Assembly (NCBI RefSeq): GCF_030055425.1 | Contig: NZ_JASFYE010000002.1 | Location: 124,001-188,000, forward strand | Reading direction: 5' to 3' | Origin: Methanothermobacter sp. | GTDB lineage: Archaea; Methanobacteriota; Methanobacteria; Methanobacteriales; Methanothermobacteraceae | Length of the DNA: 64,000 nt | Shown: positions 7,299-18,518 of the stretch, in pieces | How the letters are laid out: every line of letters begins with the position of its first letter | Position numbering within the stretch: position 1 is the stretch's first letter | Notes under the pieces: model-generated | The model's database searches: none | Told to the model about the DNA's origin: nothing | Seen by the model: only the letters and a program-made list of their open reading frames with translations | Position numbers and translations under genes: made by a program

Positions 7299-7357
7299 TT
7301 GCTGGCATGGAAAAATATTAATAGTTGATTGCCCAATCTTTTTATTGGTTTCATTTT

Positions 7358-7429
7358 GCCCTGATAGTGTAGCGGATATCACGTAGGACTGCGGATCCTA
7401 TTACCCGGGTTCAAGTCCCGGTCAGGGCA
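7358..7429 (+). tRNA. tRNA-Arg, anticodon GCG
   Basis: A full cloverleaf can be drawn: acceptor GCCCTGA (7358-7364) pairs with TCAGGGC, the anticodon stem TAGGA/TCCTA encloses loop CTGCGGA (anticodon GCG, reads CGC), and the T arm is CCGGG-TTCAAGT-CCCGG. The discriminator base is A and no CCA is encoded (the next base is T). T33 and the D-arm GTG/CAC pairs are present. It marks the left edge of the AT-rich island. Downstream T-runs near 7465-7495 could end its transcript. Confidence 0.95.
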
Positions 7430-7690
7430 TCTACTCAGTAAACTTTCATGAGATAGGTTTTAGTCATGGCTTTGGTTTTTTATAATATATTTTTTCTATA
7501 ACCTCTCTTTTATACTTGAAAAAGCCACTATTTTGATGATCCTAGGTCATCGCTTATTAGGCTCATTAAATACAGTAAAATTAATACTTACAACTCTAAT
7601 TAATGAATAAAAATATTACTAAAAATTAAATAGTAAATATTATATTATTCTTAGAATAATTAATATTATAGCTTAAAAGGAGGTTGAAGG
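7430..7690. other. AT-rich leader region of the island, no clear gene
   Basis: About 260 bases with very high A+T and many stops in all frames. I see T-runs after the tRNA, a near-palindrome around CCTAGG (7535-7551, GATGA...TCATC arms), a perfect 17-bp palindrome (7644-7660) and an AAAAGGAGGT ribosome-binding site (7675-7684). It most likely holds the tRNA terminator and the island promoter. No repeat of the tRNA 3' end was seen. Confidence 0.6.
7644..7660. promoter_or_regulatory. Perfect palindrome upstream of the radical SAM operon, candidate operator
   Basis: ATTATTCT-T-AGAATAAT: 8-bp arms with one central base, inside an A/T-rich block that could also hold the TATA box, and about 18 bases before the AAAGGAGGT site. 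Size and symmetry fit a dimeric repressor site such as those of metal regulators (DtxR/Fur-like), but no regulator gene lies beside it. At this base composition, chance palindromes are possible. Confidence 0.4.
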
Positions 7691-7738
7691 ATGGACTATG
7701 AAGAATTTTTGGAAATGGGATGTTTCCATAACCATTGA
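7691..7738 (+). CDS. Possible 15-codon leader peptide
   Basis: ATG 7691 opens MDYEEFLEMGCFHNH and stops at 7738. Its ribosome-binding site AGGAGGT (7678-7684, 6-base spacing) is the best in the island. It overlaps a 34-codon ORF in another frame (7698-7802). It could be a translated leader, a peptide substrate for the radical SAM enzymes downstream, or noise. Cys, His and Asn near the C-terminus would be reasonable targets for modification, but this is speculation. Confidence 0.3.
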   Translation: MDYEEFLEMGCFHNH

Positions 7739-7802
7739 GATAGTTATTTGTTTATTTATTTTTGAAGAATTGGAATTATTAATTGGGTATTGGGGGCTAT
7801 AA
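7698..7802 (+). CDS. 34-residue ORF abutting the first radical SAM gene
   Basis: This ORF starts at ATG 7698 (MKNFWKWDVSITIEIVICLF...) and its TAA ends at 7802, directly before the ATG of the radical SAM gene at 7803. The product is aromatic and hydrophobic, has one Cys (residue 18), an acidic patch EELE and ends GYWGL. GAAGGA at 7686-7691 may serve as ribosome-binding site. The exact junction and the shared strand suggest a real gene coupled to the enzyme: a small membrane peptide or a modified-peptide precursor. No known precursor family is recognised. Confidence 0.4.
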   Translation: MKNFWKWDVSITIEIVICLFIFEELELLIGYWGL

Positions 7803-8786
7803 ATGGAATATATCCCCTTTCTATTGGTATTTCACATAACTGGGCACTGCAATTTGAAGTGTTGTTATTGTTATGCAAATCGATATAAACGGGAACATGT
7901 TGACTTTGATGCTATAAAGGATGTTTTAAGACAATCAAAGGAATTAGGTTCAAGACATGTTATATTTAGTGGAGGGGAACCACTAATTCACCCAGAATTT
8001 CATGAGATATTAGAATATGCCAGTGAACTCCAACTTGGCATTCACATAACGTCTAATGGCACTCTCCTTGATAATGAAACTACAGTGAAATTAAAATCGG
8101 TGGATGCTAAAGTCACGATAAGTCTTGATGGGGCTTTTCCAGAAATAAATGACCCATTACGGGGGCCCGGGACATTCAAAATGGCTGTAAGTGCAATAGA
8201 AAATCTTGTAGACAACGGTGTTTATACTTCGATGAGAATGACTCTGCTTAAAAGTAATTTATTCAATGTACGTGATTATATTGAACTTGCTATAGAAAAA
8301 GGGGTAAATCGCTGCATAATTGAACGCATGACATTATCAAACTATAATAAAAGAGAATTAGCAAACCTAGAAATCACAAAAGAGGACCTTTTTCATACCT
8401 TTAAAATACTTTACGACTATAAGGACCTTAAATGTCTCAGAATAGGATCTAATGATCCACTCTGGCTTATTTTTTGTCGGAAAAACTATATTGATAAAGA
8501 CAATATATGTGGAGGATGTACTGCAGGTGTAGCTGCTGTTTCTATTAACCCTGATTTAACAGTATCCCCTTGTCCTAGATTAGATATCATTTGTGGCAGT
8601 TTAAAGGACCATTCTTTAAAATCTCTCTGGAAAAAATCGGAGGTTTTTAGGAATTTACGTAATAGGAATCTTTTTGAAGGATGTAATTCGTGTCAATTTA
8701 AAAATCTTTGTGGTGGTTGCAGAGGAGCCGCTCATGCCCATGGATTCTATTTAGGAAGAGATCCTCAGTGCTGGAGGCTAGAATAA
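7803..8786 (+). CDS. Radical SAM/SPASM domain enzyme 1
   Basis: A 327-residue radical SAM enzyme. The SAM-binding cluster motif CxxxCxxC is C16-C20-C23, followed by FSGGEPLIHPEF (SAM-binding GGE) and HITSNGTLL. The C-terminal ~90 residues hold a SPASM-type set of cysteines (CGGCTAG, SPCPRL, CNSCQFKNLCGGC, PQCW) for auxiliary [4Fe-4S] clusters. Such enzymes modify peptides (PqqE, anSME types) or tetrapyrroles (AhbC/AhbD types). Substrate unknown. First large gene of the AT-rich operon; the next gene overlaps its stop by one base (TAATG). Confidence 0.85.
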   Translation: MEYIPFLLVFHITGHCNLKCCYCYANRYKREHVDFDAIKDVLRQSKELGSRHVIFSGGEPLIHPEFHEILEYASELQLGIHITSNGTLLDNETTVKLKSVDAKVTISLDGAFPEINDPLRGPGTFKMAVSAIENLVDNGVYTSMRMTLLKSNLFNVRDYIELAIEKGVNRCIIERMTLSNYNKRELANLEITKEDLFHTFKILYDYKDLKCLRIGSNDPLWLIFCRKNYIDKDNICGGCTAGVAAVSINPDLTVSPCPRLDIICGSLKDHSLKSLWKKSEVFRNLRNRNLFEGCNSCQFKNLCGGCRGAAHAHGFYLGRDPQCWRLE

Positions 8787-9742
8787 TGAACTGCGTACTT
8801 ATGGTTACTAAATCGTGTAATATAACTTGTAAATACTGTTATATGGATTCAAAAAGTATAGATTCCAAAATTGAACCACTTAAACCCATAATGGATATAA
8901 TAGAATTATTAGAAACCATAAAACTCGAAAAATTGGTATTGGGAGGCGGAGAACCTTTTTTAAGAAAAGATATATTCAAAATACTTGAAGATAGTGTAAA
9001 GAGGTTTTGCACCAGTATTTTAACAAATGGAACCATGATTAATAAAAAAATTGTGGAAAAACTGAAATATACAGGAATTGATTGTATAAGCATTAGTTTA
9101 GATTCACCACACCCTACAATCCATAACCAATTTAGAGATAATTCCTTTTCTGATGCTCTAGAATCCATTAAAAGCTGCATAAAACATGGAATAGATGTTG
9201 ATATGGGGGTTTGTGTACATAAAAAAAATTTTGAATATTCAATAGAGCTCATTAAAATGGCTGAAGATCTTGGTCTCTCATCAATTACCTTTGAAGGACT
9301 TAATCTTATAGGAAGAGCTGAAGACCGCAAATATCTGCAACTTGAAGCGCAAGAAACAGATCATTTTTTAGAGAAAGTATACGAATATTTAAAAGATGAA
9401 AAACCGGATATCAATGTTATAATGTTTTATCCCCAATGGGTTAGATGGGACAGTAATGCTAAGGGATGTGAAGCTGCAAAAAGCTTTTTTGGCATCTTAC
9501 CTAACGGAGAAATGGTACCATGCACCAATATACCTATTTCATTGGGCAATGTACTCAATAAAGATTTTGAAGTTCTATGGAATAGTGAAATTATGAATAA
9601 GATCCGGAATTACAGAAGGGGAGGTTGTAAAATATGCAAATATAAAGATAAATGTGGTGGTTGCCGAAGCAGAGCCTATTGTACAGGTGATTTACTTGGA
9701 AGCGACCCTCTATGTACATTATCTCATGAGAAGGTGATTTAG
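8786..9742 (+). CDS. Radical SAM/SPASM domain enzyme 2
   Basis: A 318-residue paralogue of the previous enzyme. I start it at ATG 8786, which overlaps the preceding stop, because GGAGG at 8773-8777 is well placed and the protein then begins MNCVLMVTKSCNITCKYC (cluster Cys 11, 15, 18). LGGGEPFLRKDI binds SAM. The C-terminal cysteines (KGCEAAKSFFGILPNGEMVPC, GCKICKYKDKCGGC, DPLC) are a SPASM-type set. Twin SPASM enzymes in one operon suggest two steps on one substrate. A longer in-frame ORF from 8708 lies inside the first enzyme and is not supported. Confidence 0.85.
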   Translation: MNCVLMVTKSCNITCKYCYMDSKSIDSKIEPLKPIMDIIELLETIKLEKLVLGGGEPFLRKDIFKILEDSVKRFCTSILTNGTMINKKIVEKLKYTGIDCISISLDSPHPTIHNQFRDNSFSDALESIKSCIKHGIDVDMGVCVHKKNFEYSIELIKMAEDLGLSSITFEGLNLIGRAEDRKYLQLEAQETDHFLEKVYEYLKDEKPDINVIMFYPQWVRWDSNAKGCEAAKSFFGILPNGEMVPCTNIPISLGNVLNKDFEVLWNSEIMNKIRNYRRGGCKICKYKDKCGGCRSRAYCTGDLLGSDPLCTLSHEKVI

Positions 9743-10596
9743 TGTCAAATAAAAGACGTATTATCAGGGAATTAATTACCCTTCCTAGACCACAACTTTT
9801 TCCTATCCCAGCCAGTGCGGGGATGTGTGGGCTGGCTTTATCTTCATCCAGTATTAATTTTCATGAAATATCAAATGCAATAATAATACCTATTTTAATT
9901 TGGTGTGGTGGCCAGGTGTTAAATGACCTTTTTGATTCAGAGTTTGACAAAATATACCATCCTGAGTGGCCTATTCCATCAGGGTTGATAAATAAAAATC
10001 TGGCTTTTGTTTATGCAATGATCTTTTATATGGCCGGGTTTTTAGTTGCATTCTACATAAACATTTATTGTTTAATAACAACAGCTGTTGCGGCTTTTTT
10101 TGCTACAGTATACAATCAATTAAAGAGAAGAGGCATTTATGGGAATATTTGTTTTGGTTTGGCTGTGGCTTCATGCGTGTTAATTGGAACAGCTATAAAT
10201 AAGGCCATATCCATGTTAATTTTACTTGTTATATTTATATCAAGCTTGGTTCATATGAGTGATAATATACTTGGGACTTTTCCTGACATTGAAGCAGATA
10301 AAAAGATTGGTTTTCAAACATTACCTATACAAATAGGACCCGAATACTCGGCCATCATTAGTTTTGTACTTTTTTCACTGGCAAGTTTACTTACTCTGTT
10401 ATTATGGAGAGTGGGCTTGAGTATTTTCTATTTGCCTTTGGCTACTGTGGCTATAGTCTCTATATTATGGACTTCTTTTCTTGTTTTAAAGGATCCTATG
10501 AAATTCTGTAGACTAGAAGGGTTCTGGATTGTATATTCATTATTCATGGGTGAAATATTGCTTTATACATCTTTGATAGTAGGTTCCTGTATCTAA
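9742..10596 (+). CDS. UbiA-family prenyltransferase
   Basis: A 284-residue membrane prenyltransferase with about eight hydrophobic segments. First diphosphate/Mg2+ motif: NDLFDSEFDKIYHPEWPIPSG (the NDxxDxxxD type); second: DIEADKKIGFQTLPIQIG (DxxxDxxxG-TLP type). It would move an isoprenoid chain onto an aromatic ring, tetrapyrrole, glycerol lipid or other acceptor. GTG 9742 overlaps the previous stop (TAGTG) with AAGGTGAT upstream. The usual archaeal lipid enzyme is of this family, but the operon context with two radical SAM enzymes points to a special acceptor. Confidence 0.85.
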   Translation: MSNKRRIIRELITLPRPQLFPIPASAGMCGLALSSSSINFHEISNAIIIPILIWCGGQVLNDLFDSEFDKIYHPEWPIPSGLINKNLAFVYAMIFYMAGFLVAFYINIYCLITTAVAAFFATVYNQLKRRGIYGNICFGLAVASCVLIGTAINKAISMLILLVIFISSLVHMSDNILGTFPDIEADKKIGFQTLPIQIGPEYSAIISFVLFSLASLLTLLLWRVGLSIFYLPLATVAIVSILWTSFLVLKDPMKFCRLEGFWIVYSLFMGEILLYTSLIVGSCI

Positions 10597-10613
10597 TGTC
10601 AAGAGGTGGAAGA

Positions 10614-11153
10614 ATGTCTGAAAAATATCGAAGCTTTCACTTTACCAATAGGGAAATTGCTATGCTGGCAGCATTCTCGGTTCTACTGCTATCTGTAGAT
10701 CTTATCTGGATTTTAGGTCCTATTCTGGGAAATATAATCTATGGAATTATTGATGGGATTATACTGATCACGGCAGCCATTGTTATTGGTAGGAGGTACA
10801 CTGTCTTAAACCTTGGAATAATTCGGACTATCGTCGAAATATTTATAGCAGGCGCTTTTGTGGGGACCCTCACGGCATTTGATTATCTGGTCAGTGCGCT
10901 AGTACTTGAGACGATTTTACAGTTTTCAACACCATATGCAGCAAATTTAAGAATCAATGTCCTTGGCATGACACTGTATGGTTTGGTAACAAGGTTGATG
11001 TTCATAACAATAAGTGTTTTTATTTATGGCATGATTTTACCCCTCTGGCTCATGTTATTCATGATTATTGTGCCTGTCATAACCTATGCAATAGGAGGAT
11101 TTATAGGCCACGGTGTAGGCAACAGAGTTAAGAATACTGTGACAGCAATATAA
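10614..11153 (+). CDS. ECF transporter S component-like membrane protein
   Basis: A 179-residue integral membrane protein with about five or six helices. FTNREIAMLAAFSVLLLS at the N-terminus is the usual S-component opening. It is followed at once by T- and A-component genes, so it is probably the substrate-binding subunit of this ECF importer. Substrate unknown; it does not look like BioY, ThiT or CbiM to me. ATG 10614 has AGAGGTGG upstream; an in-frame ATG at 10596 overlaps the UbiA stop and would add six residues. Confidence 0.7.
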   Translation: MSEKYRSFHFTNREIAMLAAFSVLLLSVDLIWILGPILGNIIYGIIDGIILITAAIVIGRRYTVLNLGIIRTIVEIFIAGAFVGTLTAFDYLVSALVLETILQFSTPYAANLRINVLGMTLYGLVTRLMFITISVFIYGMILPLWLMLFMIIVPVITYAIGGFIGHGVGNRVKNTVTAI

Positions 11154-11206
11154 AGTTCAATTTCAGACCTGAAAATTCAATTAAATCAGAAAAATAGGGT
11201 TATTCA

Positions 11207-11992
11207 ATGATTGAGTATATAAACTCAGATTCAATAATCCACAAATTGAATCCCTTTACAAAATTTTTATTCTCCCTCATAGTTTTAACTGCGAGCATAA
11301 TAACATCTTCCGTATGGATTCTGGCATCTTTAATAACGGTTTCTATAATTTGCTGGTTAACCGCAAGGATTCCCCTTAAAAATTTTAAAGTATTACTCAT
11401 TGTCATAGTTGCAATGATTGTAATCGGTACTTTAACTCAATCTCTATTCTTTACAGAGAAACCCGGATACACTGGAACCAAAACAGTTCTTTTTAATATA
11501 ATTCCATATGATCTGCCAGTAATAGGTGCTCTACCCATCACACTTGAAGGACTAAAGTATGGAATTATCTTTTCCATGAGAATGACAGCAATAGTAATTT
11601 CGTCACTCCTACTTCCTATCACGACACACCCAACTGAAATAATACTAATGTTAAAAAGGATGAAATTTCCAGAGTGGTTGATTCTGGTTATTACAATGTC
11701 CATCCGTTTTTTACCCATGAGCATCCAAAACTTCAACACCATGAGAAATGCTCAGCGACTTAGAAAGGGTAGGCTTGAATTGAAGGATCTTCTTTTGCTT
11801 TTGGAGTCTCTCATCATAATATCAGTTTTAACAGCAAAGAAGATGGCACTTTCACTGGAAATTAAAGCATTTGGACACAGCAAAAAAAGGACCTCCTTTA
11901 AGACCCTTCAATTCCGTTTCCGGGATTTAATATTCACCTTGTTTTCAATCACGATTCTTTTTATAGCGCTACTCGACAGGTGGTGGTCCTGA
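11207..11992 (+). CDS. ECF transporter transmembrane (T) component, EcfT/CbiQ family
   Basis: A 261-residue EcfT-type protein. The N-terminal INSDSIIHKLNPFTKFLFSL is the standard entry of CbiQ/EcfT proteins (D-x-x-H-x-L-x-P-x-x-K), followed by four or five membrane helices. The coupling-helix region has AQRLRKGRLELKDLL (the Ala-Arg-Gly-type motif that docks on the ATPases, here AQRLRKG). It links the S component to the ATPase. The next gene starts one base after the stop. Confidence 0.88.
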   Translation: MIEYINSDSIIHKLNPFTKFLFSLIVLTASIITSSVWILASLITVSIICWLTARIPLKNFKVLLIVIVAMIVIGTLTQSLFFTEKPGYTGTKTVLFNIIPYDLPVIGALPITLEGLKYGIIFSMRMTAIVISSLLLPITTHPTEIILMLKRMKFPEWLILVITMSIRFLPMSIQNFNTMRNAQRLRKGRLELKDLLLLLESLIIISVLTAKKMALSLEIKAFGHSKKRTSFKTLQFRFRDLIFTLFSITILFIALLDRWWS

Positions 11993-11993
11993 A

Positions 11994-13631
11994 ATGGACG
12001 CAATCCAAATAAAAAATTTTTCATTTCGTTACGCAGGTTCAGATAAACCCGCACTTCGGAGAATAAACTTTACAGTAAAAAAAGGGGAATTTGTTGGAAT
12101 CACGGGAAAATCAGGCTGTGGAAAATCTACTCTCCTTTATGCTTTAAGAGGGATAATCCCCCATGCAGTTAAAGGTGAAAGGCGGGGTTCAGTCAGAGTC
12201 TGGGGACTCGATACAGAGGAAAATGGAATAGAAACACTCACATCTCATGTGGGTATGGTGTTCCAGAATCCAGAACTTCAGATTTTTAGTGTAACCGTTG
12301 AGGATGAAGTTGCCTTTGTAGCTGAGAACTTAGGTTATTCCCCTGACAAAATAGAGGAATGTGTAGATTTTGCACTAAACGCTGTGGATATAGCCGAAAT
12401 CAGATATCGTTACCCTCATGATTTATCTGGCGGAGAAAAACAGAAGCTGGCCATAGCATCTGTCTTATCAGTTAAACCTGAAATCCTATTATTGGATGAG
12501 CCAACATCGGAACTTGATGCAAAGGGAAGACACATGGTTCTTGAAACCCTAAGAAAATTGAATTCTAAAGGCATGACTGTAATAATTGCGGAACATAACC
12601 TTGATGAGGTAGCCCCCCTTATGGACAGGTTGATTATTCTGGATGAAGGCCGAGTCAGAGTTTCTGGAAAGCCAGAGAATGTATTCAGATCTAAAAAATT
12701 TTTTGAACTAAAATTAAGAGCTCCCCAAGTTGTTGAGGTCGGTATGAAGCTTAGAGAGCAGAAAGTTCCTCTATCGATATATGATGCTACGGAGTGTCTG
12801 AAAAATAAACTCCATGATATCCAGGTTCAGAGATATGATTGTCAGACTCCTCGGGGAAAACCGGTAATTGAGGTGAGGAATCTCTTCTTCCAGAAGGATG
12901 GTAGGAAAATTCTAGATAATATCAATATGCATATCAATAGGGGAGAGGTTGTAGGGCTAATCGGTCCGAATGGTTCAGGAAAAACAACCCTCGCAATGAT
13001 GCTAACGGGCATTTTAAGACCTTCGAAAGGAAAAATTAGGATTCTAGACGAATTTGTAGATGGAAACCCACGAAAAGTTCATGGAAAAATTGGGTTTCTT
13101 TTTCAGAACCCAGAACATCAAATTTTCTGCAGTTCTGTAAAATCTGAGGTTAAATATGGAGCTGAAAATAGGGGGGATCTGGTTTCTGCCCTGCTAAAAA
13201 AGATGGATCTTGAGAAGTTTGAGGATAAACATCCACTAACCCTTAGTAGGGGGGAGTTGCAGAGAGTAGCAACTGCCACAGTACTTTCAATGGATCCTGA
13301 AATACTTATTATAGATGAACCAACGACTGGGCAGGACTGGGATCATGTAAAGGGGTTCATGGATTTTCTCATGGGCCTGAGAACGAAAGGAAAGACGATT
13401 CTCCTCATTACACATGATATGAGAGTAGCTGCAGAGTACTGCCAGAGGCTGCTTGTAATGAAAAAGGGGAAGATAGTGATGGATTCATACACACGGAATG
13501 TCTTTGCAAATGTGGAATTCCTTAAGGAAGCCGACCTGAAACCTCCACCTATTTCCGAGATAAGTCGGATGGCAGGTATAAATCCGCCTCTTCTCAGGGT
13601 GCATGAGATCAGATTAAAGAAATGTGGGTGA
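11994..13631 (+). CDS. ECF transporter ATPase, two ABC domains fused (EcfA1A2-type)
   Basis: A 545-residue protein with two ABC ATPase domains. Domain 1: Walker A GKSGCGKST (residues 38-46), Q-loop VFQNPELQIF, signature LSGGEKQK, Walker B ILLLDEPTSELD, switch His in IIAEHNLDEV. Domain 2 (from about residue 295): Walker A GPNGSGKTT, Q-loop LFQNPEHQIF, signature LSRGELQR, Walker B ILIIDEPTTGQD, THDMR. Each EcfA usually comes as a separate gene; this fused form supplies both sites. The Gly-to-Arg change in the second signature may weaken one ATP site. Confidence 0.92.
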   Translation: MDAIQIKNFSFRYAGSDKPALRRINFTVKKGEFVGITGKSGCGKSTLLYALRGIIPHAVKGERRGSVRVWGLDTEENGIETLTSHVGMVFQNPELQIFSVTVEDEVAFVAENLGYSPDKIEECVDFALNAVDIAEIRYRYPHDLSGGEKQKLAIASVLSVKPEILLLDEPTSELDAKGRHMVLETLRKLNSKGMTVIIAEHNLDEVAPLMDRLIILDEGRVRVSGKPENVFRSKKFFELKLRAPQVVEVGMKLREQKVPLSIYDATECLKNKLHDIQVQRYDCQTPRGKPVIEVRNLFFQKDGRKILDNINMHINRGEVVGLIGPNGSGKTTLAMMLTGILRPSKGKIRILDEFVDGNPRKVHGKIGFLFQNPEHQIFCSSVKSEVKYGAENRGDLVSALLKKMDLEKFEDKHPLTLSRGELQRVATATVLSMDPEILIIDEPTTGQDWDHVKGFMDFLMGLRTKGKTILLITHDMRVAAEYCQRLLVMKKGKIVMDSYTRNVFANVEFLKEADLKPPPISEISRMAGINPPLLRVHEIRLKKCG

Positions 13632-13641
13632 GGGATAGGAG

Positions 13642-15372
13642 GTGCTGGGGCTCATTAAACTGGCTGGAAAAAGGAGAGTTAAACTTTTCATAGCATGTTC
13701 ATTGCATGTAATCGCTTCTGCTCTGGCAGTAGTCCCATTCCTTGTGATATACCTTATTTTCATTGAGATATTCAGTGGATCCTGCAACCATCGGAGGGTA
13801 TGGATGCTAATGGCTTTAATACCAATTATCTACTTGGCAATGTCAGCTATCCTTGTATCTGCATACAATGTATCACATGCTGCAGCATATGAAATCCTTG
13901 CAGACACCAGAATTGATCTGGGAAGGAAATTTTTCAATTTGCCAATGGGATATTTCAATGATAAGAATACTGGTGAACTGGAAACAGTAATGAATGAGAA
14001 TGTAGAAATTCTTGAGCTTTTTTTAGCCCACCACCTTCCAGAGATGATAAGTACAGTATTTGTACCTTTATCCCTTGCATTGATACTCTTCTTAATGGAT
14101 TGGAGGATGGCAATGGCTTCTATACTACCAGTGACCCTTGCAATGGCTGTGATCATGACAAAAGATCAGAAATGGAAAGATATGATCGACGCGTATCTTA
14201 GGGCTCAGGCAGAAATTAATTCAACAATTTTGGAATACGTAGAGGGTATTAAGGTGATTAAGGCCTTCAATCAAACACCCAATTCATTCAGGCGCTATCT
14301 AAACACCATGGCTTGCTGGAGGGAAAGTATGATTGAATGGTCAAGAGAAAGGGCCCTTCCCTTCACGATTTACCAGGCTCTGATAACATCCACCCCAATA
14401 TTTATAATTCCGGCGGGTCTTTTGCTATATAACCTAGAAATTATTTCTAAGGATACATTTTTAATGTTTCTCATACTCGGTCCAGTTTTAGGAAGCCTCT
14501 TTATGCGCATATATGACTTTTTAAGGTACGGTGTTGAGGAAAAGGAATGCGTAAATAGGATCAGGAAGGTGTTAAATGCAGATGAGATGATTGATAATGG
14601 AAATGAAAATGTTGAATACTTTGATATAACATTCAGGAATGTTTATTTTGCCTATGAAACCGGAAATGCTGTGCTGAAGGGTATAAGCTTTCATGTACCG
14701 AACGGAACAAGATGTGCCATCGTTGGACCTTCTGGGGCGGGTAAAACCACGATAGCAAGGTTGATATGTAGATTCTGGGATGTCGACGATGGTGAGATTC
14801 TCGTTGGAGGATGCGACATAAAGGATATGTCAGTAAAGGATCTTCTATCACATGTTTCAATGGTTCTACAGGAACCATACCTCTTCAATGATACGATACT
14901 GGAGAATATCAAGATGGGAAATCCTGATGCATCTGTTGATGATGTAATTGTGGCTTCAAAGGTCGCTGGGTGTCATAAATTCATAGAAAAACTTCCTAAT
15001 GGTTATTTAACTTGTGTAGGTGAAAGTGGCGTGAAATTGAGTGGTGGAGAAAAACAGAGAATTTCAATTGCAAGGGCATTTTTAAAGGATGCACCTATCG
15101 TTATAATTGATGAAGCCACGGCATTTCTTGATCCGGAAAACGAGGCGATAATACAGGAAGCTGTAAGTAAGTTAACCTCTAATAAAACTGTCATTGTGAT
15201 AACTCATAAACTTCATACAATACGTGAAGTGGAAAATATACTTGTCATTAAAGAAGGAAAAATAGTTGAAAGGGGACATTTTGATGAATTGATAACTAAA
15301 GACGGTCTTTTCAGGGAAATGTGGCATGATTATATGTCATCGATGAACTGGAGTATTAAAAAGGTGAGATGA
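13642..15372 (+). CDS. ABC transporter half-molecule 1 (exporter fold, IrtA/YbtP-like)
   Basis: A 576-residue half-transporter: a six-helix type IV (exporter-fold) membrane domain (about residues 15-310) and an ATPase domain with Walker A GPSGAGKTT (from 362), signature LSGGEKQR, Walker B IVIIDEATAFLDPENE and TH switch. The DEATA-x-x-DPENE D-loop is like that of siderophore and metallophore half-transporters which, despite the exporter fold, import metal complexes; this is from memory. GTG 13642 has GGGTGAGG 8 bases upstream. It surely pairs with the next gene. Confidence 0.88.
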   Translation: MLGLIKLAGKRRVKLFIACSLHVIASALAVVPFLVIYLIFIEIFSGSCNHRRVWMLMALIPIIYLAMSAILVSAYNVSHAAAYEILADTRIDLGRKFFNLPMGYFNDKNTGELETVMNENVEILELFLAHHLPEMISTVFVPLSLALILFLMDWRMAMASILPVTLAMAVIMTKDQKWKDMIDAYLRAQAEINSTILEYVEGIKVIKAFNQTPNSFRRYLNTMACWRESMIEWSRERALPFTIYQALITSTPIFIIPAGLLLYNLEIISKDTFLMFLILGPVLGSLFMRIYDFLRYGVEEKECVNRIRKVLNADEMIDNGNENVEYFDITFRNVYFAYETGNAVLKGISFHVPNGTRCAIVGPSGAGKTTIARLICRFWDVDDGEILVGGCDIKDMSVKDLLSHVSMVLQEPYLFNDTILENIKMGNPDASVDDVIVASKVAGCHKFIEKLPNGYLTCVGESGVKLSGGEKQRISIARAFLKDAPIVIIDEATAFLDPENEAIIQEAVSKLTSNKTVIVITHKLHTIREVENILVIKEGKIVERGHFDELITKDGLFREMWHDYMSSMNWSIKKVR

Positions 15373-17097
15373 ATGTATAGTAGATTATTTCACCTTGTGG
15401 GAAAAAATAAGAATCAGTTAAAGTTCACACTTATTTTAATGTCAATTTATGGCATTATCAAAACTGCCCCTCTAGCTTTTCTTTATTTAATTATAGTAGA
15501 GTTTTTAAAGCCCGTTCTTAATATTCCAAGGATTTTAACCATATACTTACTTATGGTGGTTAGCTACGTAATCATAAACAGCATTGACCACTATCTGTTT
15601 CTCAGATCAATGCAGCAAGGCCTTAAAATTTCCTATGATCTCAGAATGAAACTTGGAAATAAATTAACAAAAATATCACTGGGGATTTTCACAAAAAAAA
15701 CCACGGGAGAGTTTAATACAACACTTAGCGAATATGTGAGCAGGGTGGAATATTTCATAACATATATGGCACCATACCTAATTACCTCAAAGGCATCATT
15801 TATTTTTATCATAATCATTTTTTTTATTTTGGATTGGAGGATTGCACTGGCTTCCATTTCAGCGATTCCTCTGATTTGGATGGCCTTTAGATATTCTGAT
15901 AAAATTTCTGAAAAGGTCAAAAGGGAACGAGAAAGGTCACTTTTCAGACTGAATTCACGGATAGTTGAATTCATAGAATGCATGCCAGCCATAAAAATTT
16001 TCAATCAGGAATTTTCTAGCCTTAATAAGTTGAGAAAAAGTGTAGAGGATTTTAGGGATAGGAACATAAACACTGTATCGGCTACAGTAATTCCTAATAT
16101 AATCCTCCTTATATCTTCAAGTTTACTGATAGGATTCATCATGCCAGCATCATTATATCTTTATTTCAGGGGGGCACTGAACTCTGAAATCCTCGTATTC
16201 TGTTTAATAGCCGCACCTGCACTCTCAGAGGCTCTCGCACATTATCTTTATGGTTACCTCCACATGAAACATTCAGTTGGTAAAGCAATGAATCACATAA
16301 TCAAACTTTTAGAGATGAAAACCCTTCCAGAATCATGTGAAAGCAGAGAACCTGAAAAATTTGATATCGAATTTGAAAATGTTACCTTTTACTATGAGGA
16401 GAAAAAAATACTCGATAACATCAGTTTCAGAGTTCCTGAGAACAGTATAACGGCACTTGTGGGCCCATCAGGCGCTGGTAAGACAACCATTACAAATCTC
16501 ATCCTCCGATTCTGGGACCCTACCTCAGGTAAGGTGAAGATTGGAGGCTATGATCTGCGGGATATGGATATGGAGACGCTCTTTTCATGTGTTTCCATAG
16601 TCTTTCAAGATGTCATACTTTTCAATAACACCGTTAAGGAGAATATAAGAATTGGAAGGAATGATGCAAGTGATGATGAAGTCATAAAGGCTGCCAAGGC
16701 TGCCAGGTGCCATGAATTTATAATTCAACTCCCCCGGGGATATGATACTGTCATAGGGGAAAAAGGGGCAAGGTTAAGTGGCGGGGAAAGACAGAGGATA
16801 GCGATAGCCAGAGCAATTCTTAAGGATTCACCAATTCTTATTCTGGATGAGGCAACTGTTTATGTGGATCCTGGAAACGAAAAATCGATACAGGAGGCAC
16901 TCGGAGAATTGATCAGGAACCGAACAGTTCTTATGATCGCTCACAGACTTTCCACAATAAGATCAGCAGACCAGATAATAGTCATTAAAGATGGTAAAAT
17001 CGCTGAAAAGGGTAAACATAATGAGTTAATGAAACAAAATGGACTTTATAGGTATTTATGGGAGATCCAGGAATCTGCAGAAGCATGGAAAATTTAA
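15373..17097 (+). CDS. ABC transporter half-molecule 2 (exporter fold, IrtB/YbtQ-like)
   Basis: A 574-residue partner of the preceding half-transporter, same layout: membrane domain to about residue 310, then Walker A GPSGAGKTT (from 364), Q-loop VFQDVILFN, signature LSGGERQR, Walker B ILILDEATVYVD and AHRLST. Both halves keep the catalytic Glu and switch His, so both ATP sites look active. ATG 15373 follows the previous stop directly with AAGGTGAGAT. Last gene of the AT-rich operon. Confidence 0.88.
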   Translation: MYSRLFHLVGKNKNQLKFTLILMSIYGIIKTAPLAFLYLIIVEFLKPVLNIPRILTIYLLMVVSYVIINSIDHYLFLRSMQQGLKISYDLRMKLGNKLTKISLGIFTKKTTGEFNTTLSEYVSRVEYFITYMAPYLITSKASFIFIIIIFFILDWRIALASISAIPLIWMAFRYSDKISEKVKRERERSLFRLNSRIVEFIECMPAIKIFNQEFSSLNKLRKSVEDFRDRNINTVSATVIPNIILLISSSLLIGFIMPASLYLYFRGALNSEILVFCLIAAPALSEALAHYLYGYLHMKHSVGKAMNHIIKLLEMKTLPESCESREPEKFDIEFENVTFYYEEKKILDNISFRVPENSITALVGPSGAGKTTITNLILRFWDPTSGKVKIGGYDLRDMDMETLFSCVSIVFQDVILFNNTVKENIRIGRNDASDDEVIKAAKAARCHEFIIQLPRGYDTVIGEKGARLSGGERQRIAIARAILKDSPILILDEATVYVDPGNEKSIQEALGELIRNRTVLMIAHRLSTIRSADQIIVIKDGKIAEKGKHNELMKQNGLYRYLWEIQESAEAWKI

Positions 17098-17131
17098 AGT
17101 AGTGGAACTTTATGAGACCCCACAGCTACTT
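17097..17131 (+). terminator. Candidate hairpin at the end of the island operon
   Basis: AAGTAG (17097-17102) and CTACTT (17126-17131) can pair, extended by TGG/CCA inside, right after the last ABC gene. Only a short T-rich stretch follows, so termination is uncertain. It coincides with the return to the host base composition. Confidence 0.35.
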
Positions 17132-17168
17132 ATGTTTGCGTATTCAAGATAAATAATGGTGGGTTGTC

Positions 17169-18518
17169 ATGGGGAACTACTTCAACCCTGAAATAGAGAC
17201 AATGGAACGGGGGGACCTGGACGCCCTCGTGGAGGAAAGGATAAGGTATACAGTGAACTATGCCTACGAGAACTCCCCATTCTACAGTAAATGGTTCAGG
17301 AAAAACAAGATCAAACCCTCGGATATAAGGAGCCATGAGGACCTCAGGGAGCTCCCGATAATAACCGGTGAAACAGTCAGGGAAAACCAGCCCCCTGAAA
17401 GGGATGACTTCGAATTCAGATGCGCCCCATGGGAGGATATATACACCATACATGAGACCAGCGGTACCAGTGGAAGGCCTAAGTCCTTCTTCCTAACATG
17501 GGGGGACTGGCAGAGGTACGCCGAGAAGTACGCAAGGTCATTCGTATCCCAGGGATTTGAGAGGGGCGACAGGGTGGTTGTATGTGCCTCCTATGGCATG
17601 AACGTGGGTGCAAATACCATGACCCTCGCAGCGCAGAAGATAGGGATGACCATAATCCCCGAGGGCAAATGCACCTTTCCTGTGAGGATAATAGAGAGCT
17701 ACCGTCCCACGGGCATAGTTGCAAGCATATTCAAACTCCTGAGGCTTGCGAGGCGCATGAAGGAACAGGGCCTTGACCCCCGGGAGTCAAGTATAAGGAG
17801 ACTGGTTGTGGGTGGTGAAAGCTTCGCACCCGAATCAAGGGAGTACGTGGAGGAAATATGGGGCGTGGAAGTCTACAACACCTATGGAAGCACAGAGGGG
17901 ACCATGTGCGGAGAATGCCACATCAAGGAGGGCCTGCATGTCCCTGAGGACCTGGTGCACCTGGACGTTTATGATCCAGCCATGAGGGACTTTGTTGATG
18001 ATGGGGAGTGCGGCAGAATAGTCCTCACAACACTCCTGCCCGTGGGTGAGAAAACAGGGACCCTCCTCCTCAACTATGACACCGAGGACACCACGGTTGT
18101 AATCTCAAGGGATAGGTGCAAATGTGGAAGGACCCATATGAGGATAATGAACCCTGAAAGGGAGGCTGAGACCTTCTGGGTGGCAGGGCACCCGTTCAAC
18201 AGGGTTGATGTTGAGGCTGCAGTTTTCCAGAGGGAGAATATGGATTATCTAACAGGTGAATACGAGGCTTTCCTCTATGGTGACGAGGATGAGGGGCCAA
18301 TAACAATGAGGGTGTCTCTGGAGTGTGAGGACCCTGAAAACTGTGCCTTGGACCTAATAAAGGAGAACTTTATAAAGGCATTCTTCAAATATAAGAGAGA
18401 GCTCTACGAAGCATATACAGAGGGTCTTTTTGAGATACTTTTCAACTTCACAGGGCCAGGGGAACTTGAATTCTACAGGGTCAAGGGAAGACCAAAACGT
18501 ATCGTTGATAGAAGATAA
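17169..18518 (+). CDS. Coenzyme F390 synthetase / phenylacetate-CoA ligase family protein
   Basis: A 449-residue adenylate-forming enzyme of the PaaK-like family. IHETSGTSGRPKSFFLTWGDW is the P-loop (A3-like) motif, VVVGGESFAPESREYVEE and VYNTYGSTEGTMCGECH complete the ATP and substrate site; a Cys pair follows (RDRCKCGRTH). In Methanothermobacter, relatives adenylate the 8-OH of F420 to make F390, a signal of oxygen or redox stress. Several paralogues exist there, so the substrate of this one is not certain. ATG 17169 has GGTGGG upstream. First gene right of the island. Confidence 0.8.
   Translation: MGNYFNPEIETMERGDLDALVEERIRYTVNYAYENSPFYSKWFRKNKIKPSDIRSHEDLRELPIITGETVRENQPPERDDFEFRCAPWEDIYTIHETSGTSGRPKSFFLTWGDWQRYAEKYARSFVSQGFERGDRVVVCASYGMNVGANTMTLAAQKIGMTIIPEGKCTFPVRIIESYRPTGIVASIFKLLRLARRMKEQGLDPRESSIRRLVVGGESFAPESREYVEEIWGVEVYNTYGSTEGTMCGECHIKEGLHVPEDLVHLDVYDPAMRDFVDDGECGRIVLTTLLPVGEKTGTLLLNYDTEDTTVVISRDRCKCGRTHMRIMNPEREAETFWVAGHPFNRVDVEAAVFQRENMDYLTGEYEAFLYGDEDEGPITMRVSLECEDPENCALDLIKENFIKAFFKYKRELYEAYTEGLFEILFNFTGPGELEFYRVKGRPKRIVDRR

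Follow-up and report, generated by a model that had tools for sequence, protein, structure and literature searches.

A conserved 15-codon gene ahead of two radical SAM/SPASM enzymes in an acquired island of a methanogen: a probable precursor peptide gene linked to an ECF-type transporter

In the RiPP systems that depend on SPASM radical SAM enzymes (sactipeptides, ranthipeptides, SuiB/StrB, PqqA-PqqE and mycofactocin), a short peptide gene lies directly 5′ of the gene for the radical SAM/SPASM enzyme. Gene-encoded precursors can be very short: MccA of microcin C7 has 7 residues and PqqA about 23. Few archaeal peptide-derived natural products are understood. Thioamidated RiPP clusters of Methanobrevibacter and Methanothermobacter, which are defined by TfuA-YcaO, are said in the sections of PMC8120280 drawn on here to contain radical SAM proteins. 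As to transport, the relevant excerpts of PMC5037267 identify structure 5EDL as YkoE, which pairs with YkoD, a protein carrying a fused pair of ATPase domains, and those of PMC10967856 and PMC10246721 describe YbtPQ and IrtAB as siderophore importers. In the text sampled from open-licence PMC papers we found no description of the peptide or of the gene cluster reported below, the closest account being that of PMC8120280.

The window analysed is a stretch of 64,000 nucleotides from a Methanothermobacter genome of 1.67 Mb in 12 contigs. A coenzyme F390 synthetase gene at position 17169 (TIGR03335, 915 bits) marks the host as a methanogen. Between a tRNA-Arg gene and this synthetase gene lies an AT-rich stretch (7432-17168), the GC content being ~32-44% over about 7440-17100 vs ~46-54% on both flanks. 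The same site is empty in the seven other genomes of the genus, in all of which about 130-230 bases separate the two genes. As the distance in the window is ~9.7 kb, the AT-rich block next to tRNA-Arg is regarded as an acquired island, headed by the 15-codon gene. No convincing attachment repeats were found at the far end of the island and no peptidase gene was seen within it; in the leader region Rfam returned the tRNA alone, plus a sub-threshold match overlapping it. Intact relatives of the cluster occur in two genomes from another family within the window's order (G053 and G110), and a decayed one in a genome of the window's genus (G002). The features are as follows.

7357..7431, plus strand: tRNA-Arg (gcg), found by ARAGORN; left border of the acquired island
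7644..7660, no strand assigned: 17-nt palindrome ATTATTCTTAGAATAAT, 5′ of the peptide gene; possible operator, weak, in an AT-rich region
7678..7684, plus strand: Shine-Dalgarno sequence AGGAGGT of the 15-codon gene, seen in the sequence ~7 nt before the ATG
7691..7738, plus strand: 15-codon gene MDYEEFLEMGCFHNH, stop TGA, proposed precursor peptide; same position in G053 and G110
7698..7802, plus strand: 34-codon ORF MKNFWKWDVSITIEIVICLFIFEELELLIGYWGL, stop TAA at 7800-7802; out of frame with the 15-mer, not conserved, judged to be no gene
7803..8786, plus strand: rSAM1, radical SAM/SPASM protein of 327 aa (PF04055 and PF13186); 55% identity to G053, 53% to G110
8786..9742, plus strand: rSAM2, radical SAM/SPASM protein of 318 aa (PF04055 and PF13186); 48-50% identity to its relatives
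9742..10596, plus strand: UbiA-family prenyltransferase (PF01040), accessory; 51% identity to G110
10614..11153, plus strand: predicted ECF transporter S component, a 180-residue membrane protein; no Pfam family, model fold matches S components
11207..11992, plus strand: ECF T component, CbiQ family (PF02361)
11994..13631, plus strand: ECF ATPase with two fused ATPase domains (TIGR04520, 436 bits in two stretches, cut-off 315)
13642..15372, plus strand: ABC transporter 1 (ABC1), exporter fold; nearest to YbtP/IrtA among single-unit PDB chains
15373..17097, plus strand: ABC transporter 2 (ABC2), exporter fold; nearest to YbtQ/YbtP among single-unit PDB chains

An earlier note on this DNA had pointed to a 15-codon ORF with a good ribosome-binding site at 7691-7738. 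Its coordinates proved exact, and the AGGAGGT preceding its ATG is taken to match the archaeal anti-Shine-Dalgarno sequence. In both G053 and G110 a 15-codon gene, MSYEEFLMLGCKHNH, stands behind AGGTGAT and 5′ of rSAM1, the distance from the peptide ATG to the rSAM1 ATG being 112 bases in the window and 111 and 98 bases in G053 and G110, respectively. The three intact peptides, of which those of G053 and G110 are identical as protein, share 11 of 15 residues (M, Y, E, E, F, L, G, C, H, N and H) and give the consensus M-x-Y-E-E-F-L-x-[ML]-G-C-x-H-N-H. At the codon level, the genes of G053 and G110 differ by three synonymous and no nonsynonymous changes; compared with the window, G053 shows three synonymous and four nonsynonymous codons, and G110 five and four.

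All ORFs of 8-70 codons on both strands around the rSAM1 start were compared, of which the three genomes have 11, 11 and 16. The 15-mer was the sole strong shared small ORF, with a BLOSUM similarity of 66 in both relatives vs 27 for the next unrelated ORF. When DNA of three relatives was aligned with that of the window and scored against shuffles, the 48-base peptide gene reached z values of 7.1-8.4 and the opening 90 bases of rSAM1 10.5-11.6; the 60 nt upstream of the peptide gene gave 1.0-3.3, and the spacer following it -2.7 to 0.8. The peptide gene thus appears as an island of similarity amid poorly alignable spacers. Upstream of it, G053 and G110 carry at a similar position a palindrome different from that of the window, TAATTAGTTATTACTAATTA (loci L022 and L023); ATTATTCTTAGAATAAT and TAATTAGTTATTACTAATTA might be candidate regulator-binding sites, though weak ones, the region in the window being AT-rich.

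The pattern EFLxxGCxHNH-stop, with at most two mismatches, occurs in 3 of the 151 genomes of the phylum, one copy each, whereas the reversed pattern used as a control occurs in none of the 151. The peptide and rSAM1 (E 1e-60) are found in the identical three: the window's genome, G053 and G110. By these sequence comparisons, the conservation of the 15-mer exceeds chance. It is a short gene that is conserved, constrained in its reading frame and preceded by a ribosome-binding site, and both its position and the genomes in which it occurs tie it to rSAM1, rSAM2 and an ECF S component dedicated to the cluster. That it is a real, translated gene we regard as practically certain.

The most serious rival to a precursor is a regulatory leader peptide, whose translation or stalling would control rSAM1 expression and which would be no substrate at all. 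The gene is short, lies immediately before the first enzyme, and encodes a peptide with an end rich in His and Cys; moreover, strong hairpins are predicted just past the peptide stop, ahead of the rSAM1 start, in G053 (z -4.6) and G110 (z -3.6). In the window, however, such a hairpin is absent (z +1.0). Also against this reading, a leader peptide should retain its control codons rather than its full sequence: here the entire peptide is conserved, YEEFL included, changes at His and Ser codons are silent, and there is no run of a single codon. A leader function is therefore improbable. The hairpins of G053 and G110, although both strong, are unlike each other (L022:2473-2542 and L023:2473-2530, minus strand).

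The proposed transporter genes bear on what may happen to a peptide product. A structural model of the 10614-11153 protein (pLDDT 68) superimposes on 5EDL with Z 12.8 and an rmsd of 3.4 over 163 aligned residues. Other S components score Z 8.6-9.7 and unrelated pMMO entries reach up to 9.1, so that the assignment rests mainly on the 5EDL match. The fold comparison was needed because a profile of the protein searched against PDB sequences gave no true relative. The protein is accordingly read, on its modelled fold, as a putative S component, and together with it the T component and the two-ATPase protein expected of a group I ECF transporter are present. Relatives of this S component at 1e-8 occur in 4 of the 151 phylum genomes, namely the three with the peptide and G002. 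The window has one such gene; G053 and G110 have a second (L039:10266-10805 and L040:11831-12382), ~40% identical to that of the window. For ABC1 the best prokaryotic single-unit PDB match is YbtP (348 bits; Sav1866 242, TM288 230) and for ABC2 it is YbtQ (316 bits; MsbA 272), tandem eukaryotic ABCB proteins, mostly efflux pumps, outranking YbtP and YbtQ overall in both cases. Chains 6p6i_A and 6p6i_B are presumed to be YbtP and YbtQ, respectively, partly from the chain names of 8vsi.

These proteins might instead export the modified peptide as a secreted, bacteriocin-like product. Both ABC proteins have the exporter fold and score against curated models of peptide exporters as well. But the Pfam scan showed no peptidase domain on either, no immunity gene could be recognised, and the S component, part of an importer, strictly co-occurs with the cluster. 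We consider a bacteriocin unlikely, and retain import of a peptide-derived product as the preferred reading.

The two enzymes, described in the earlier note as radical SAM/SPASM proteins, bear out that description, since both domains exceed the Pfam cut-offs in each. The rSAM2 start overlaps the rSAM1 stop. Both proteins begin at most 12 residues from the radical SAM domain and have no added N-terminal domain. Profile matches to PDB sequences are led for both by SkfB, 5wgg, anSME, 5v1q and PqqE; taking 5wgg to be CteB and 5v1q to be SuiB, the leading structures appear to be peptide-modifying SPASM enzymes. The structure model of rSAM1 (pLDDT 52) was left out of the analysis. A PqqD-type recognition domain (PF05402, E 0.1) was found in none of the three cluster genomes and in 5 of 14 control genomes, a search that a divergent RRE could escape. 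Other genomes of the genus encode a separate SPASM protein (L004, L005 and L006; 454 aa long in two cases), which ranks there with the closest relatives of rSAM1.

Curated models rank the enzymes in another order, with NirJ2 and AhbD first, followed by mycofactocin, GeoRSP, NirJ and TIGR04053 types, every one scoring far short of its cut-off. For rSAM1 and rSAM2, respectively, the scores are 155 and 170 bits with NirJ2 and 154 and 153 bits with AhbD (equivalog cut-off 500 for both), 142 and 85 bits with the mycofactocin maturase MftC (cut-off 265), and 110 and 98 bits with PqqE (cut-off 381.35). The UbiA protein scores 89 bits with ChlG (cut-off 313) and 50 bits with CyoE (cut-off 210.3). It is encoded in two of the three intact clusters, directly after rSAM2 in the window and adjoining the ECF-S gene in G110, while G053 has a distant paralogue only. 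In G110 a 517-residue squalene-hopene-cyclase-like protein (L040:10185-11738) lies between UbiA and the second ECF-S gene; it carries a DSDDTA stretch, which we take to be the class II cyclase motif, and is found in 1 of the 151 phylum genomes. The G053 cluster contains neither UbiA nor the cyclase-like protein.

From these rankings one could propose that rSAM1 and rSAM2 act on a tetrapyrrole in the manner of NirJ, AhbC or AhbD, that UbiA adds a prenyl group to it in the way of the synthases of chlorophyll or heme O, and that the transporters move the product, the peptide being a regulator or chaperone. This proposal is quite improbable: the scores that suggest it fall far under the cut-offs, the mycofactocin maturase model comes nearly as high for rSAM1, and the conserved peptide is left unexplained.

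As for the 34-codon ORF at 7698-7802, it does end where the first radical SAM gene begins, in the same frame, as had been observed previously; its ATG lies 7 bases downstream of that of the 15-mer, in a different frame. Its hydrophobic product (ending in GYWGL) had been put forward as a precursor, with conservation ahead of enzyme homologues as the check. On that check the general idea of a small precursor gene ahead of SPASM enzymes stood, through the 15-mer conserved in G053 and G110, and the 34-mer did not, with a similarity in relatives of 16 against 66 for the 15-mer, a level that sequence comparison does not place above chance. There is next to no chance that the 34-mer is the precursor, abutting and in frame with rSAM1 though it is in the window, as its frame in G053 and G110 reads MKNF-stop, closed after four codons, and in the decayed cluster of G002 the ATG is missing and the frame is not open.

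The copy in G002 occupies a different genomic place (L041:7974-15160). A stop interrupts its rSAM1, as do deletions that extend into the UbiA tail, so that the enzymes are deleted while most of the importer genes are intact. Its peptide ORF, behind a good ribosome-binding site, begins MNYKEFLKLGCFNN and extends past 15 codons. The ECF S, T and ATPase genes and ABC2 are open, and ABC1 has one frameshift near a run of A. An importer that outlasts the enzymes suggests a substrate that others supply, a reading kept at the level of suggestion because of the ABC1 frameshift. Beyond these genomes, 12 stretches matched a relaxed peptide pattern; none is a 15-codon ORF, and they are attributed to chance. 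None of the 12 had a relative of rSAM1, rSAM2 or ECF-S at 1e-3 within the stretch of DNA searched around it, and the rSAM1 profile matched in one of five of their genomes (8e-38), the ORFs at the pattern locus there (L033) including no radical SAM gene. Searches for rSAM1 confirmed 0 of 18 candidate stretches in genome contigs and 0 of 29 in viral contigs, where the peptide pattern was likewise absent (0). Among plasmids, 356 records held rSAM1 relatives, none with at least 60% identity, the best among the matches listed being ~27-29%. At 1e-55 the rSAM1 profile found nothing in 391 evenly drawn genomes from the bacterial class of the L037 genome, nor in 227 from the phylum of the L031 genome; both searches ran without a positive control and show little. 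The same chemistry may operate with another peptide elsewhere, among relatives below those thresholds.

Taking enzymes and transporters together, we find the best overall explanation to be that 7691-7738 encodes a precursor peptide of 15 residues, and hold it with good confidence. Given its conservation beside two radical enzymes and a transporter dedicated to uptake, the peptide is probably the starting material for a small molecule that the cells both make and take up. Served by a strong ribosome-binding site of its own, it would be translated more than the enzymes are, and the hairpins of G053 and G110 may raise the ratio of precursor to enzyme. Both enzymes would modify the peptide, guided by the invariant YEEFL segment and acting likeliest at the invariant C-x-H-N-H end; that it is the substrate of both is very likely. 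In some lineages UbiA would prenylate the product as an optional step, to which one lineage may add the cyclase-like protein. The small product would leave the cell, and the ECF importer together with the ABC pair that resembles YbtPQ/IrtAB would bring it back in, probably along with a metal. Handling of the product by the transporters is somewhat favoured. The sole pointers to a metallophore are the conserved Cys and His residues, such residues being able to bind metal, and the likeness of the ABC pair to siderophore importers; we accordingly hold a metallophore as a possibility on the doubtful side. More speculative still, and unlikely to hold in full, is an archaeal natural product of peptide origin that forms a new class, in which a 15-residue precursor and two radical SAM enzymes without classical recognition domain yield a prenylated metal chelator or cofactor, in one lineage perhaps cyclised and terpenoid, that is secreted and recovered via its own ECF importer, and is shared widely enough for some strains to keep the importer after losing synthesis. 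Should the product prove to chelate metals, it would reveal how competition for metals works in some methanogens, and that gene-encoded peptides are among the things an ECF transporter can serve. Gene callers normally report nothing as short as a precursor of 15 residues. As the cluster combines a minimal substrate with two small enzymes and an importer of its own, peptide modification and uptake are each directly testable.

Compared with the SPASM RiPP systems, the locus shares a conserved short gene next to the maturase, here the 15-mer beside rSAM1, and a maturase of the peptide-modifying type with radical SAM and SPASM domains, SPASM enzymes acting on other substrates as well; SPASM structures, SkfB, anSME and PqqE among them, are what the enzyme profiles match. 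It differs in that the precursor has 15 residues only, that there are two paralogous enzymes, that these have no extra N-terminal domain in a genome with no detectable PqqD-type domain, and that they score under the cut-off of every curated model among the matches listed. Microcin C7 and PqqA resemble it in having an extremely short gene-encoded precursor, but the chemistry, MccB adenylation for microcin C7 and a PqqD-dependent PqqE for PQQ, is different. No YcaO or TfuA was among the matches listed for the cluster proteins scanned, so that the TfuA-YcaO definition does not apply. Like YbtPQ and IrtAB, the best prokaryotic single-unit PDB matches, ABC1 and ABC2 form an adjacent pair of exporter fold, with a transport direction that is predicted here; unlike them, the pair is archaeal and lies beside an ECF module. 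The S fold, the T component and the single protein with two fused ATPase domains recall YkoEDC of the group I ECF transporters, which the excerpts of PMC5037267 used here present as thiamine-related and from Gram-positives, whereas the present system is linked to radical SAM enzymes and two exporter-fold ABC proteins. Judged by the tests run, the system appears to work like a radical SAM RiPP while belonging to none of the PQQ, mycofactocin, NirJ2/AhbD or TfuA-YcaO groups.
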